The notes under the pieces: model-generated
Told to the model about the DNA's origin: nothing
The model's input: the letters and a program-made list of their open reading frames with translations, nothing else
Database searches by the model: none
Made by a program: the position numbers and the translations under genes
In this document: in pieces, positions 18,593 to 26,641 of the stretch
Position numbering within the stretch: position 1 is the first letter of the stretch
How the letters are laid out: each line of letters opens with the position of its first letter
From: a virus
DNA: 30,982 nt
IMG/VR virus record: IMGVR_UViG_3300027791_000083
Span: 1 to 30,982 of that record
Reading direction: 5' to 3' (one strand)

Positions 18593-19936
18593 TTATACTC
18601 CTCCACCATCAAGAACAACCCATCCAAAAGTATTAATTATAGATGTTCTTGCTGTTTCAGCAGCTGTTCCTAAAGTGTAAGTAGATGGTTGAAACCCTAT
18701 ATTTCCACCTGGCGCTCCAGTTCCTCCAGGATAAGCAGCTTGTAATTGAGCTTCCCAAGCTACTAAGATATTGTCATATATTGCGGTTGTAAAACCCCCT
18801 CCTTGATTGCCTCCAAAAAAATTCTGAAAATTAGGACCTTGAGTTATAACCCAATTAGAAATATCACCTATAACTGCATTATCTATTCCATTGTTTGTTC
18901 CAAAAGTTAAACCAAATAGCAGCGCGCTGCTTATATTCCAATTACTAAGGTCTCTATTGAAACCTGTGCTTTGCTGTAAAAATCCATTAAAGTCAACTAC
19001 ATTTTTTGTGTTCCAATCTGTAATATTAGGATTAAGAGCTAAGAAATTCAGTCCCCTTAAAAACATTTGCCTCATAGTTGTAGCACTACCAACATCCCAC
19101 GTATTAAGTGACTCTTGTGTTAATGGGCCAACGTATGCTTGACGAAATACAGCCTCCATAATAGTCACATTGCTTACATCCCAATTCCCAATAGGTTGGT
19201 TAAAGCTTTCCGAGTTCCCAAACATTTCATACATACTTGTAACCAGCGGGAAATTCCAATTATTTATGTTAGCACTGCCTCCATTGTTAAAAGCAAGTGC
19301 TTTTTTAAAAATGCTATCTATAGAAGTCACATTACTCAAATCCCAAGAACCTATGTTTTGATTGAAATCATTTGTCTCTTCAAACATACTGCTTATATCT
19401 ATAGCACTACTCATGTCCCATAGATTTAAAGGCTTATTGTAAATAGTAGATCTGGTAAACATATTTGCAAAATTCTCAACATTACTTACATCCCAATGGT
19501 TGATGTTTGAGTTAAACAAAGAACAGTTAGCAAAAGCGCCTAAAACACTGGTTAAGATTGATAAGTTAGGTGCATCTGTTGCTGACATAGTCATGTTGGA
19601 ACACCCATTAAAAGCAACAAAAAAGCTTTGCCAAATGCAAGTCCCCCAATTTTTTATTTCTATAAGTTTTTCTGAATCACCAGATGAAGCAAACCTAATC
19701 TGTCCAGTCACAGCAGTAACTTTTATATCATAAATTCCTGAACTTGCATAAGTGTGATCTTGTTGTCCTGTAACTCCAGTATCTACATTGCCATCTCCCC
19801 AATCTATATCTATAGCTTCAGCTGATACCCAAGGTAATCTAAATTCATCGTTGCTAGTAGAACCTGGATTGTCAGTTTTTACACGAATAACAAAACGTTC
19901 TTCTGCACCTAGTGATTTACATAGTACTCTTCTCAT
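18593..19936 (-). CDS. Adhesin-like protein: PKD-like domain plus BspA/DUF285 repeats (447 aa)
   Basis: Residues about 20-75 form a PKD-like domain (IDIDWGDGNVDTGVTG, DHTYASSGIYDIKV). Residues about 105-375 carry eight or so repeats of about 25-30 residues with the BspA/DUF285 signature: WDVSNVENFANMF, WDMSSAIDISSMF, WDLSNVTSIDSIF, WDVSNVTIMEAVF, WDVGSATTMRQMF. These leucine-rich-like repeats occur in bacterial surface proteins that bind host or matrix molecules. No signal peptide is present, consistent with a virion protein. The gene overlaps the 167-residue anchor gene by one base, so the two are likely made together. It is probably a receptor-binding or carbohydrate-binding tail component, acquired from bacterial surface proteins. 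Confidence 0.82.
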   Translation of the reverse strand: MRRVLCKSLGAEERFVIRVKTDNPGSTSNDEFRLPWVSAEAIDIDWGDGNVDTGVTGQQDHTYASSGIYDIKVTAVTGQIRFASSGDSEKLIEIKNWGTCIWQSFFVAFNGCSNMTMSATDAPNLSILTSVLGAFANCSLFNSNINHWDVSNVENFANMFTRSTIYNKPLNLWDMSSAIDISSMFEETNDFNQNIGSWDLSNVTSIDSIFKKALAFNNGGSANINNWNFPLVTSMYEMFGNSESFNQPIGNWDVSNVTIMEAVFRQAYVGPLTQESLNTWDVGSATTMRQMFLRGLNFLALNPNITDWNTKNVVDFNGFLQQSTGFNRDLSNWNISSALLFGLTFGTNNGIDNAVIGDISNWVITQGPNFQNFFGGNQGGGFTTAIYDNILVAWEAQLQAAYPGGTGAPGGNIGFQPSTYTLGTAAETARTSIINTFGWVVLDGGGV

Positions 19937-21415: not shown

Positions 21416-21745
21416 ATGAGTGTATTTTTTAGAAAAGTGAACATCAACAAAGGAACCAACACGGCAACCGTGATTGCATCCTCTGCACCACTAGGTAACA
21501 AGAAGGCAATGATTGCTGGAGTTGAAGTGGCAACACGTGACAATAGTAATATCACCTTTGGGGTATTAAGTCTAATGAATCCAACAACGGGCAAGACCTG
21601 TGACGCTGATAGCGAAATCATCAAGCATATTCAAAAGAATGTGAATGTGGGTGATGAGATGCCGGATTTCCAAATGACTGATAACTTTGTGATGGACATG
21701 AAGACCAATGAGCCAACAACTCTGAGATGGATTGAGGCTGTATAA
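21416..21745 (+). CDS. Early paralogue A of a two-copy phage family (109 aa)
   Basis: Starts MSVFFRKVNINKGTNTAT; about 61% identical by eye to the protein at 22313-22639. Conserved blocks are FRKVNINKGTNTAT, the central TFGVLSL, NVGDxMPxF and the end EPTTLxWxEA. No signal peptide, membrane helix or catalytic motif. The gene is clearly richer in G+C and in NNC/AAG codons than its neighbours, a sign of high expression or separate origin. It has a structured leader and its own 3' hairpin. The fold looks like a small beta domain. It could be a nucleic-acid-binding or host-takeover protein; function unknown. Confidence 0.8.
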   Translation: MSVFFRKVNINKGTNTATVIASSAPLGNKKAMIAGVEVATRDNSNITFGVLSLMNPTTGKTCDADSEIIKHIQKNVNVGDEMPDFQMTDNFVMDMKTNEPTTLRWIEAV

Positions 21746-22097: not shown

Positions 22098-22142
22098 GTA
22101 ACACAAAGGGTGTAGTTGATAGCACACCCTTTGTATTGTTAC
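22098..22142 (+). terminator. Hairpin after 90-residue gene
   Basis: A 16-bp stem: GTAACA plus CAAAGGGTGT (22098-22113) pair with ACACCCTTTG (22124-22133) and TGTTAC (22137-22142), with a three-base bulge TAT (22134-22136) and a 10-base loop. Terminator-like hairpin but without a clean T-run. Confidence 0.7.
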
Positions 22143-22260
22143 TTGATAATCCCTATTTGTTAAAGCACTTTGGAAACAGGGAAGTGGAAACATCCAAAGA
22201 AAATAGTTCTAGTTCTTATCTCTCTGCTCTTTCAGCTGCTCCCTTCGGTCGCTCTCTCTG
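22143..22260 (+). promoter_or_regulatory. Compositionally odd leader before paralogue B
   Basis: A 7-bp hairpin CTTTGGA/TCCAAAG (22168-22174/22193-22199) encloses two copies of GGAAACA. It is followed by a pyrimidine-rich, GC-rich stretch (22219-22266) including GCTCCCTTCGGTCGCTC and repeated CTCTCTGCTC. The strand asymmetry and GC content are unlike the rest of the region. A start codon at 22136 would read through it in frame with the next gene, but that start lies in the terminator and is not credible. Confidence 0.55.
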
Positions 22261-22278
22261 CTCCCCAGCTAATATTTG
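22261..22278 (+). promoter_or_regulatory. Shared leader element, copy 2
   Basis: CTCCCCAGCTAATATTTG, 35 bases before paralogue B, matches the element at 21346-21363 except for one base. Its position before both paralogues suggests it was duplicated with the gene and kept by selection. Confidence 0.55.
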
Positions 22279-22312
22279 CACTATTGCATTAATAAATAAA
22301 ACCAATAAACAA

Positions 22313-22639
22313 ATGGTATATTTTAGAAAAGTAAATATTAATAAGGGAACCAATACAGCAACACTTATATGTACTGATACACCCATAGAAAAGAAACAAG
22401 CTACAATAGCAGGTATTCCAGTAGCAACCAGAAGCCAAACCAATGTAACATTTGGAGTGCTAAGCTTGAATGATCCTAAAACAGGTCAAACAATGAATGC
22501 AGATCATGCAACAATTAAGGAATTACAGAAGACACTTAATGTTGGAGATGCAATGCCAGGCTTCAGATTAAGTACTAATGCCGTAATGGACATGAATACT
22601 AAAGAACCAACCACACTAATGTGGGTTGAAGCAGAGTAA
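22313..22639 (+). CDS. Early paralogue B (108 aa)
   Basis: Preferred start MVYFRKVNINKGTNTATLIC at 22313, because it aligns with the start of paralogue A and follows an A-rich leader (ACCAATAAACAA). An in-frame start at 22136 would add 59 residues of serine-rich, low-complexity character, not present in A, and I reject it. About 61% identity with A, with conserved ends and centre. Codon use is more AT-rich than in A, as in the rest of the region. It is followed by a perfect 13-bp hairpin. Function unknown; the two copies have diverged, so they may have split roles. Confidence 0.8.
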   Translation: MVYFRKVNINKGTNTATLICTDTPIEKKQATIAGIPVATRSQTNVTFGVLSLNDPKTGQTMNADHATIKELQKTLNVGDAMPGFRLSTNAVMDMNTKEPTTLMWVEAE

Positions 22640-23884: not shown

Positions 23885-23907
23885 ACCACTCACTTAAAAT
23901 TAGACCA

Positions 23908-24225
23908 ATGAAAAATTTATTAAAGAATATTTTTAATCTAGTGTATATTATATTACTACCAATAGGTATTATATCAGCCACTGCATATATGATATTATGG
24001 CTTGAAACACCATGGTATGTAAATGCTATGATGATTATGCTAACAATACTATCTACATTTATTGCAGCATCGTTTTATAATAATGAATTAGAACTACGTA
24101 ACATGCGTAGATTAGCATTTAAAATACAAGTAGCACCAATTTGTGGTTTCGCAATAGGCTATGTAGAAAAATGTCTTGTTATTCTATTACCTTTTGTAAC
24201 AATAGAGATTTATAAGAAACCTTAA
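23908..24225 (+). CDS. Multi-pass membrane protein (105 aa)
   Basis: At least three hydrophobic stretches: NLVYIILLPIGIISATAYMI, VNAMMIMLTILSTFIAASFY and CGFAIGYVEKCLVILLPFVT, with a basic loop ELRNMRRLAFK between. Probably an inner-membrane protein of the early region. It ends just before the structured non-coding stretch at 24226-24441. Role unknown. Confidence 0.7.
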   Translation: MKNLLKNIFNLVYIILLPIGIISATAYMILWLETPWYVNAMMIMLTILSTFIAASFYNNELELRNMRRLAFKIQVAPICGFAIGYVEKCLVILLPFVTIEIYKKP

Positions 24226-24441
24226 TTTAGAAAAAAAAGGGCCATCAGTGACACCCTAACAACACCAGTAATATTATATCTATAATAACACTAGGTATTA
24301 AGGCTAAGGAAATGGTTAAGTAAGTGGTAACCAAAGCAAAATAAGAATGGTTAAATAACCAGGTTAGACCCTAGCCTACAATAATGTAGTGGGTGACACT
24401 AGCAATGTTAGCCATTCTGTTTTGTTTTAAAAAAATAACAA
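24226..24441 (+). ncRNA. Structured non-coding region, candidate RNA or attenuator
   Basis: 216 bases without a gene but richer in G+C and inverted repeats than neighbours. Positions 24333-24354 pair with 24408-24428 in a stem of about 21 bp with one bulge, followed by TTTTAAAAAAA. It encloses an ACCC/GGGT and CTACA-ATAA-TGTAG hairpin (24368-24394). Two copies of AATGGTTAA (24311-24319, 24346-24354) compete for the one TTAGCCATT (24408-24416), and AGGCTAAGG (24300-24308) can also pair with CCCTAGCCT (24370-24378). GTGACAC occurs at both ends (24248-24254, 24393-24399). The final stem could be a terminator with an alternative fold, ending 14 bases before the next gene. No known riboswitch class was recognised. 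Confidence 0.5.
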
Positions 24442-24618
24442 ATGGAAATAGCAAACAATTTAAAAACAAATGTCTTTAGTTATTTAGAAAGACTAAGGGA
24501 TAGTGGAGTAATAAATATGATGGGAGCATCTTCATACATAGAAGAAGAATTTCAATTAGATAAAAAAACATCAAAGCATTTACTAATATCTTGGATAAAA
24601 ACATTTAAACATGAATAA
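24442..24618 (+). CDS. Small hypothetical protein (58 aa)
   Basis: MEIANNLKTNVFSYLERLRD then a compact helical part with FQLDKKTSKHLLISWIKTF. Typical of a small helical phage protein, perhaps DNA-binding, often found in marine phages as I recall, but not assigned. It overlaps the next gene by eight bases. It is the first gene after the structured RNA region. Confidence 0.72.
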   Translation: MEIANNLKTNVFSYLERLRDSGVINMMGASSYIEEEFQLDKKTSKHLLISWIKTFKHE

Positions 24619-25141
24619 AGCTTATACAATACAAGAAGAATCAATTAGAGACCTTTTAACAAGTGTTATTAATCCAAAGTATGTTGGTAATCATGATAAT
24701 ATAGAACACATAGGAGACATGCTTACATCTCTATCAGAGGACAATGTAAGTGTATTAGTTACATTAGTATTGGCAAGAAAAGAAAAAATACCGTTTTGCA
24801 TTGGTGATACAATAAAGTTTAAACCTAATACTTATTCATCAATATATGATAAAGATATTATGAAAGATAAAAGGTTAATGTCTGATGATGGCTATGTATA
24901 TGGTGTTATAAAAGCGGATGGTTCATGGAATAATGAATCGTTTAATCCTTATTATCCAACAATGAATGTAGAAATGTACATATGGAAAAATGATAAAGTT
25001 ACAATGTATGAAGATTCTTTGAAGACTGTTAGTCTAATTAAAATAGATCCAAAAGATTTACCTGATTTTAACAGCAAAGAATATTTAGATTTCTTTAGTA
25101 AAGAAGTAAAACAAGAAATAGATAATACTTTAAACATATAA
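24611..25141 (+). CDS. Hypothetical protein (176 aa)
   Basis: Starts MNKAYTIQEESIRDLLTSVI; helical N-terminal half, then a beta-rich domain (CIGDTIKFKPNTYSSIYDKD, GDVYGVIK-like loop) and an acidic end. No zinc motif or catalytic signature. It precedes the HTH gene by one short gene and probably belongs to the same transcript. Confidence 0.75.
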   Translation: MNKAYTIQEESIRDLLTSVINPKYVGNHDNIEHIGDMLTSLSEDNVSVLVTLVLARKEKIPFCIGDTIKFKPNTYSSIYDKDIMKDKRLMSDDGYVYGVIKADGSWNNESFNPYYPTMNVEMYIWKNDKVTMYEDSLKTVSLIKIDPKDLPDFNSKEYLDFFSKEVKQEIDNTLNI

Positions 25142-25145
25142 TATT

Positions 25146-25367
25146 ATGCCTAAAATTGAAATGAAAGTAATCCAAGAAGATTACAAGAACTGGCTTGCTT
25201 TAAAAAAATCTGTAGAAAAAGTACCTGGAGCTAAAATACAATCATTTGGTAAACAAATGAATATAATACATTCTTTAGATAATGATGCATTAGAAAAAGA
25301 AACGGATCCTAATGTAGCACTATTGATGCTTATGAAAGACCATGTCAACTATAAAAAAGACATATAG
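25146..25367 (+). CDS. Small hypothetical protein (73 aa)
   Basis: MPKIEMKVIQEDYKNWLALK, mixed charge, helical. It ends inside the start of the HTH gene (26-base overlap), implying translational coupling. Not recognised. Confidence 0.65.
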   Translation: MPKIEMKVIQEDYKNWLALKKSVEKVPGAKIQSFGKQMNIIHSLDNDALEKETDPNVALLMLMKDHVNYKKDI

Positions 25368-25599
25368 GTTTGGAATAGTATCATGTGATGTTATCTTAGA
25401 TCCTGATATTACATTACAATCAAAAGCATTATATGCTGCATTAGCATGTTATGCAAATAAACAAAGAACTTGTTTTCCCTCTATATCAACACTGTCCAAT
25501 GACTTAAATGTTAGTGAAAGAACTATCAAAAGATTGATAAAAGAGTTAAAAAATAAGAAAATTGTAGTAAGAACAGGTAGAAATTTAAAAATAAAATAG
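25342..25599 (+). CDS. HTH_36-like DNA-binding protein (85 aa)
   Basis: Residues about 25-80 fit the HTH_36 pattern found at the N-terminus of phage replication initiators and regulators: SKALYAALACYANKQRTCFP, then SISTLSNDLNVSERTIKRLI and a final helix LKNKKIVVRTGR. The product is only this domain, so it is more likely a transcription regulator or a split initiator than a full initiator. No other replication initiator is seen nearby. A hairpin overlaps its stop codon. Confidence 0.75.
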   Translation: MSTIKKTYRFGIVSCDVILDPDITLQSKALYAALACYANKQRTCFPSISTLSNDLNVSERTIKRLIKELKNKKIVVRTGRNLKIK

Positions 25600-25625
25600 A
25601 CTTGTTAGCTATATATATGTCTATT
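25595..25625 (+). terminator. Weak hairpin after HTH gene
   Basis: AATAGAC (25595-25601) pairs with GTCTATT (25619-25625), followed by ATATTTTAAAA. It overlaps the HTH stop codon. Stem of only 7 bp and wide loop. Confidence 0.35.
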
Positions 25626-25683
25626 ATATTTTAAAATTAGATAAATCTGTTTCATATTAATCATTTACATATATAAAAATAGT

Positions 25684-25691
25684 TATTTTTG
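25684..25691 (+). promoter_or_regulatory. Candidate -7 promoter box (Bacteroidota type)
   Basis: TATTTTTG fits TAnnTTTG 26 bases before the next gene start. No good -33 TTTG is visible at the usual spacing (CTGTTTC is nearest), so it is only a candidate. Confidence 0.4.
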
Positions 25692-25717
25692 TTAGAGTTA
25701 CTAGCATAAATAATAAA

Positions 25718-25993
25718 ATGATTATACAATTACCCAATGGTAGAGTAGTAGAATGTTCTCTTGAACAGTATCTATCATTGTCAGAAGTTGAAATTAAAGA
25801 GCTGAACGGTTTAAGTACAGCATATACCAAAGAAGTGGGTGATCCTTTTTACAATAAGTTTTCAAATCACATAGCAGATGGTAAAATTGATCCAGAAATT
25901 GCAGAAGCAATTATGGAGCATGAACCAGATCTATATGATATTGATTCTTTTGAAAAATTAGAAGACCCGTATTTCCACTCGGATGATGTCTAA
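25718..25993 (+). CDS. Acidic hypothetical protein (91 aa)
   Basis: MIIQLPNGRVVECSLEQYLS then acidic helical part ending PYFHSDDV. The opening looks like a small family I recall in marine phages (MIIxLPNGRxxExSLEQY), but I cannot name it. It precedes the acidic-tailed protein and lies after a candidate promoter. Function unknown. Confidence 0.7.
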   Translation: MIIQLPNGRVVECSLEQYLSLSEVEIKELNGLSTAYTKEVGDPFYNKFSNHIADGKIDPEIAEAIMEHEPDLYDIDSFEKLEDPYFHSDDV

Positions 25994-26038
25994 TCTATAG
26001 ACAGTCCAATCATTTATTAATTACAAAAACAATTTATT

Positions 26039-26641
26039 ATGCAAAGTAAAGTAAACATCCTTGCAGATGACATGGGAAATGTTGTCCGCCAATCAAGTAC
26101 AAATTCAGAATTTGGTCACGTTAGACTACAACAAACTAGAGTTACTTTTGGTAACGGTGGTTGGGTTAAAAAATCTAACATTAGTACCTTATTACATGGT
26201 AAGCTAGAAGACTTACAAGAATTAGGTTTAGAATCTATGAATTCATTACCTGGTAAAATTGTTATTAAAGAACAATTAGAACCATTTAGCAAAACTGATC
26301 CAGACAGAGATTATAAAAAAGCAGGTGAAACTGGTATTATATGCTGTGTTGATGGACAACCTATTTATAGGAAAACATTTTTTGTTGCAGATACAACTGC
26401 AGAAGATGTATTAATTGCTCATAATAATGGTCAAGCTATTAAAGATGCAAATATTTTAGAAAAAGCAACTGTAGCTGATAATAATACTTCAGCAGCAGAA
26501 GCATTTGGATTTGAAGACCCAAAAGATGAAGATACAACAGATACAACTGAAGAAGTTGCAGATGAGGTAGAAGAAGTTGAAGAAGAAGAAACAGAAGAAA
26601 CAGAAGACGAAGTTCTTGTAGAAGAAACTTTTGAACTGTAA
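26039..26641 (+). CDS. Possible single-stranded DNA-binding protein with acidic tail (200 aa)
   Basis: Residues 1-130 form a mainly beta domain (VRLQQTRVTFGNGGWVKKSN, LPGKIVIKEQLEPF, GIICCVDGQPIYRKTFFVAD); residues about 155-200 are a long Asp/Glu/Thr-rich tail ending FEL. SSBs bind DNA with an OB fold and recruit partners through an acidic C-terminus, so this layout fits an SSB-like role. Position in the replication region supports it. Not a match I can confirm to a named SSB family; a basic DNA-binding core with a decoy tail is an alternative. Confidence 0.5.
   Translation: MQSKVNILADDMGNVVRQSSTNSEFGHVRLQQTRVTFGNGGWVKKSNISTLLHGKLEDLQELGLESMNSLPGKIVIKEQLEPFSKTDPDRDYKKAGETGIICCVDGQPIYRKTFFVADTTAEDVLIAHNNGQAIKDANILEKATVADNNTSAAEAFGFEDPKDEDTTDTTEEVADEVEEVEEEETEETEDEVLVEETFEL

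Follow-up and report, generated by a model that had tools for sequence, protein, structure and literature searches.

A probable control element heading the replication module in a clade of marine crAss-like phages

A gap without genes ahead of the replication genes

The window, that is the whole stretch of 30,982 bases analysed here, is an IMG/VR virus record from an uncultivated marine crAss-like phage. It has recognisable portal, major head and terminase families, and its terminase large subunit shares about 25-27% identity with those of crAss-like, Bacteroides, Cellulophaga and Flavobacterium phages. Structural genes fill the minus strand up to about 21.2 kb; thereafter the plus strand carries small genes, followed by the replication module. 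Two plus-strand open reading frames (ORFs) of this early region (21416-21745 and 22136-22639) are clear paralogues that both contain RKVNINKGTNTAT and represent a tandem duplication. On the minus strand, 18593-19936 encodes a virion-region protein with repeated WDVSNVT-type motifs which, read from sequence only, resemble BspA-type surface-protein repeats.

Our subject is the gap at 24226-24441, which an earlier note on this DNA had singled out as a structured non-coding region. No gene was overlooked there, as every ORF within it is shorter than 33 amino acids. The features of the gap and its neighbours are collected in Table 1.

Table 1. Features in and around the gap (window coordinates).
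Feature	Position	Strand	Remarks
Upstream ORF	23908-24225		stop codon shortly 5' of hpA
hpA, inverted repeat	24239-24254	none assigned	6+4+6 nt; directly or shortly 3' of the upstream stop codon
Box, near-invariant, 16 nt	24255-24270	+	CCTAACAACACCAGTA; family form (A/C)C(T/A)AACARYACCAGTA
P1, imperfect palindrome	24255-24303	none assigned	AT-rich centre; the 3' strand paired with the box is TACTAGT/GTTAG-like, here ACTAGGTATTAAGG (24290-24303)
hpB, hairpin	24314-24332	+	GGTTA-AGTAAGTGG-TAACC, AGTGG loop; arms 24314-24318 and 24328-24332; in the window's minimum-energy fold
hpC, long hairpin	24333-24428	+	stem 24333-24354 with 24408-24428; stems wholly different between relatives, hairpin persists in most
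Small ORF, 58 aa	24442-24618	+	between the element and the p24 gene; absent from most relatives
p24 family gene, 176 aa	24611-25141	+	conserved, downstream of the element
Replication initiation protein homologue (HTH part)	25342-25599	+	PHROG 428, E 2.5e-14; PHROG 270, E 1.2e-13 (both replication initiation proteins)

The 58-aa ORF matches no family. The AlphaFold model of the p24 protein (mean pLDDT 87) consists of helices and a small beta barrel, and a comparison with the PDB returned only weak matches resembling ribosomal protein eL21 (KOW/SH3-like), none at E<=0.001, too weak to assign a family or a function from the fold. In a search of 50,697 GenBank phage records neither p24 nor the 26039 protein returned a homologue, and the two gene families that neighbour the element are without a match there. 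About 1 kb separates the element from the replication initiator homologue downstream.

To gather relatives we used the helicase (27705) and the 26039 protein as queries, together with DNA patterns and a protein profile, and obtained several hundred loci; of the first 160, about 80 are matched by the 216-base region itself. The working set comprises 105 distinct sequences from IMG/VR phage contigs, with 61 representatives below 80% identity, and membership was partly defined via a box-type motif. The box lies at most 450 nt upstream of p24 in 113 of 137 distinct p24 loci. Seven further loci are too short and 17 lack the box at that place, several of the latter having either a variant box or a box that lies upstream of one more gene (L279, L428, L424, L440 and L076). 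A pattern search of 257 Gb of cellular genomes gave three isolated matches in unrelated bacteria, which we took as chance rather than as host or prophage copies.

The surroundings of the element vary among these phages. The gene upstream can encode a membrane protein of 105 aa, an unrelated protein of 280 aa or yet others, and in most relatives the element directly precedes the p24 family (24611). In some, tRNA-like or small genes stand between the element and the downstream genes. L033 is missing p24 and has an initiator-like gene directly after the element; in the L315/L379 contig a block of 26762 family, HNH and helicase genes has been relocated between the element and p24, with the element still in front. 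These two arrangements contradict a leader of the p24 gene alone. Because the place at the head of the module is kept despite the loss of p24, the intervening genes and the move of a block, the comparison favours an element that serves the replication module as a whole rather than one gene's leader. As a separate observation, a tRNA-like sequence directly follows hpC in L279, L424, L440, L449 and L466.

Each of three near-complete genomes holds box and hairpin once, 1.7-2.6 kb from the divergence of two gene blocks, and no further place in these genomes combines the two. Gene strand and GC skew change within a few kb of the element. Mean GC skew is near 0 to the left of it and 0.05-0.14 to the right, a step in 400-bp bins that becomes gradual when taken per gene at third codon positions, and because it is a gradient by this measure, the reading as a replication origin is weak. 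Neither iterons nor DnaA-box-like repeats occur in 23900-26100, and the Bacteroidota host promoter TAnnTTTG is not enriched on either strand. Rfam 15 gave no match in the window at the gathering threshold, nothing relevant or convincing in sub-threshold scans of the window and L111, and only tRNAs in six divergent members, in line with the earlier note, which had recognised no known class. Our literature search returned nothing specific on non-coding RNAs or replication origins of crAss-like phages.

A repeat conserved in shape, an adjoining box and a palindrome

In the window, hpA reads GGGCCA-TCAG-TGACAC and only four of its six positions pair. Its constraint emerges from the relatives. Over 53 representatives, standard pairs make up 82.1% of the hpA positions, against 51.9% with the 3' letters reshuffled, and covariation reaches 0.712, against 0.203 in shuffled sequences and at most 0.184 in any version slid out of register. 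Watson-Crick z lies between 4.5 and 9.5 for each of the six pairs, and the adjoining positions inside and outside show no such pairing. In 50 of the 61 representatives the distance between the 6+4+6 repeat and the box is constant. Its sequence, by contrast with this conserved shape, is variable even among close relatives, which does not suit a sequence-specific operator. The strong covariation in relatives, which the earlier note had proposed to look for, is found in an upstream repeat that it did not list; the most conserved part of the gap, 24239-24270, went unmentioned there and is without RNA strand preference. In eight members the palindrome recurs almost unchanged 36-47 nt downstream of AACA, and hpA complements that zone better than permuted pairings do (P below 0.001). 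In L066 (near 520-600) the element has turned into a long and almost perfect inverted repeat, and both strands have T-runs; it is possibly a bidirectional terminator.

Eight columns of the box are invariant across 53 divergent sequences. AACA and ACCA are identical in 61 of 61 representatives, an invariance that is partly by construction and somewhat overstated because the members were picked using a related motif. The window contains a single good copy, as do the three near-complete genomes. The 3' strand of P1, with which the box pairs, is more variable than the box itself, and this partner strand changes along with the box in L449, L466 and L076 (ATAAC/GTTAT).

Neither hpA nor P1 distinguishes the two strands. 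Pairing in hpA amounts to 82.1% on the plus and 83.0% on the minus strand, with GT in 20 and AC in 23 cells; over the 61 representatives the folding z is -1.57 on plus and -1.56 on minus for hpA, and -0.85 and -1.08 for P1, all of these being comparisons of energies and pair-type counts with moderate power, and in some tests low power. The equal depletion of GT and AC in hpA would be expected of an inverted repeat that acts at the DNA level, or of a hairpin that is required in both strands. Because of this lack of strand preference, hpA, the box and P1 probably act as DNA.

Hairpins of a probable plus-strand leader

Taken by itself, the plus strand of the gap does not fold exceptionally well (z -1.44; 20 of 200 shuffles are at least as stable), so the evidence for structure beyond chance comes from the relatives rather than from the window alone. 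The GTT..GTG pattern of hpB recurs in 32 of 61 relatives, against 4.9 in shuffles and 2 on the reverse strand. The stem of hpC forms the dominant minimum-energy helix, with 21 pairs, A24344 bulged and T/A runs after it, and it encloses an inner hairpin, CTACA-ATAA-TGTAG, at 24376-24389; stem, bulge, runs and inner hairpin had all been described correctly from the letters. Three close relatives (L015, L022 and L077) form a compensatory series from T-A via T.G to C-G, and among hpC pair types GT (GU) prevails over AC. The UUUCAUACUUGUUU loop of hpC is kept in one large clade. In the clade with L044, L141, L144 and L195, conservation covers the loop UUUUCAUACUUGUUU but not the stem, which suggests a contact with a protein or an RNA.

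For hpB and hpC together, the mean folding z over the 61 representatives below 80% identity is -2.83 on the plus strand, against -1.92 on the minus strand and -0.34 in a coding control. The strand difference of 0.91 (s.e. 0.15) favours plus. Because of this significantly better folding on the plus strand, we assign hpB and hpC to a plus-strand leader RNA. The earlier proposals of a structured region ahead of the replication genes and of a long hairpin acting as RNA thus hold in the relatives. Several members that keep hpA and the box, for example L163 and L033, lack hpB and hpC.

The suggestion that the region might be an attenuator fared less well. A T-run (at least 5 T in 8 nt) follows hpC in only 20 of the 61 representatives, with a mean of 3.3 T in 8. 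The sequences invoked for mutually exclusive folds are all present, AATGGTTAA at 24311 and again at 24346, TTAGCCATT at 24408, AGGCTAAGG at 24301 and CCCTAGCCT at 24369, but their competition is not a family feature. The first copy of AATGGTTAA is the 5' arm of hpB, a conserved hairpin in its own right, and the second is the 5' arm of hpC; TTAGCCATT and CCCTAGCCT lie within hpC, whose sequence is private to the window lineage, and TTAGCCATT occurs only in the gap of the window and its near-identical copies. The likeness of 24311-24323 and 24346-24358 is hence a local one and does not represent a conserved switch. A more general alternative, in which the conserved CTAAC pairs with the GGTT zone, was not enriched either (4 of 61 at p<0.05). 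Because the competing pairings are private to the window phage and the T-run is not conserved, attenuation is not supported.

What the element may do, and what it resembles

Because more than 100 related phages have the inverted repeat, the box and the RNA hairpin just ahead of their replication genes, the gap carries a real, so far unnamed control element. As to the kind of control, the account that we consider likeliest, and hold tentatively, is a control region made up of a DNA site at which transcription or replication starts and a structured 5' leader. The left half (24239-24303, with hpA, the box and the AT-rich P1) would most likely work as DNA: a phage-encoded protein, such as the module's initiator or a phage or virion RNA polymerase, would recognise the box together with the adjacent dyad or an extruded hairpin, and transcription or replication would start there. 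The right half (24314-24428) would form the structured 5' leader of the plus transcript and probably affect the processing or stability of the replication mRNA. This account draws on covariation confined to exactly six pairs around a 4-nt spacer, on the strand neutrality of hpA and P1 beside the plus bias of hpB and hpC, on the near-invariant single-copy box, and on the stable place at the module head with the initiator downstream and the change in GC skew nearby. Against it stand the lack of a recognisable host promoter and of iterons, and the gradient form of the skew; one copy per genome is also odd for a general phage promoter. A more specific version, rather unlikely in our estimate, is a new hairpin-dependent initiation site of crAss-like phages, in which a repeat kept by shape and not by sequence, next to an invariant box, would provide the single start for transcription or replication of the module and be used by a phage enzyme.

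The whole region might instead be a single cis-regulatory leader RNA of the plus strand, in which hpA, the box, P1, hpB and hpC form a joint fold that controls the replication genes through a ligand, protein binding or processing. Such a leader agrees with an order and orientation that stay fixed relative to the downstream genes, with the plus-strand character of hpB and hpC, with the ability of hpA and P1 to form on plus and with the two pairs of relatives (L011/L007 and L175/L247) in which hpA has changed via plus-strand wobbles. We nevertheless regard it as doubtful, given that hpA and P1 show no plus preference, that hpB and hpC can be missing where hpA and the box remain, that no conserved T-run follows, and that the element is tied to no one gene, as L033, the intervening tRNA and small genes and the L315/L379 contig illustrate.

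Our first impression had been of an antisense small RNA of about 75-100 nt on the minus strand, arranged like phage lambda OOP RNA, with P1 as its body and with hpA and an adjoining A-tract (a U-tract on minus) as an intrinsic terminator, convergent to the replication operon. The minus strand of the gap indeed folds better than the plus strand (z -2.99), 28 of 33 clusters give a more stable hpA plus P1 on minus, a symmetric count of hpA and P1 pairs finds more A.C (wobbles on minus) than G.T, and the tract next to hpA is 75-82% A at four positions. The stability difference, however, disappears against dinucleotide shuffles, and the A-tract, which is partly explained by the TAA stop, is absent in the divergent L287, L271, L279, L302 and L315. 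With hpA offering only six pairs, often AT-rich, and with no consistent minus promoter, this RNA is unlikely.

Less probable still is a trans-acting small RNA of about 190 nt that spans hpA to hpC on the plus strand and is released from the operon transcript. Its conserved, unpaired-looking box and loops, the tRNA-like genes directly after the element in some relatives and the survival of the element through changes in gene order would agree with it, whereas a conserved 3' terminator is lacking, hpB and hpC are lost in some members, and hpA and P1 again have no plus preference. An ordinary strong terminator hairpin with chance complementarities and nothing further, although compatible with the insignificant plus-strand fold of the gap and the T-run after hpC, is contradicted by covariation, near-invariant box and synteny over 61 divergent representatives and is very improbable.

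For this large clade of uncultivated marine crAss-like phages, our searches brought up neither an origin of replication nor an early promoter or a structured RNA. The single-copy, shape-conserved repeat with its invariant box provides a precise, testable site for the switch-on of replication in the clade, and the element is a ready marker for the replication module in metagenomes.

Several known systems share parts of this anatomy. Like Rfam leaders and riboswitches, the element places several hairpins before an operon; it differs from them in matching no Rfam 15 family. With origins located beside an initiator gene, it shares a single-copy, AT-rich, palindromic sequence near a replication initiator homologue and a change of strand and GC skew within a few kb, but it has no iterons and its skew is a gradient. 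The lambda OOP RNA region lies between cII and O, just upstream of the replication initiation genes, and is likewise a short non-coding element in front of such genes, with the potential for a convergent, terminator-like hairpin on the opposite strand. Here, by contrast, the terminator feature is not universal, there is no sequence relation, the clade has Bacteroidota-type hosts, and a minus transcript is putative. The virion RNA polymerase promoters of phage N4 consist of a short hairpin with a 3-nt loop, and crAss-like phages have a virion RNA polymerase as well; the annotation of phi14:2 includes one. The element departs from N4 promoters in its 4-nt loop and in the type of polymerase, and in being single-copy in the three near-complete genomes instead of preceding early transcription units in several copies. 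It resembles them in that a short, small-loop inverted repeat stands at a fixed distance from the conserved sequence that follows it, with the centre of the hairpin 11.5 nt ahead of AACA, a spacing close to that in N4.
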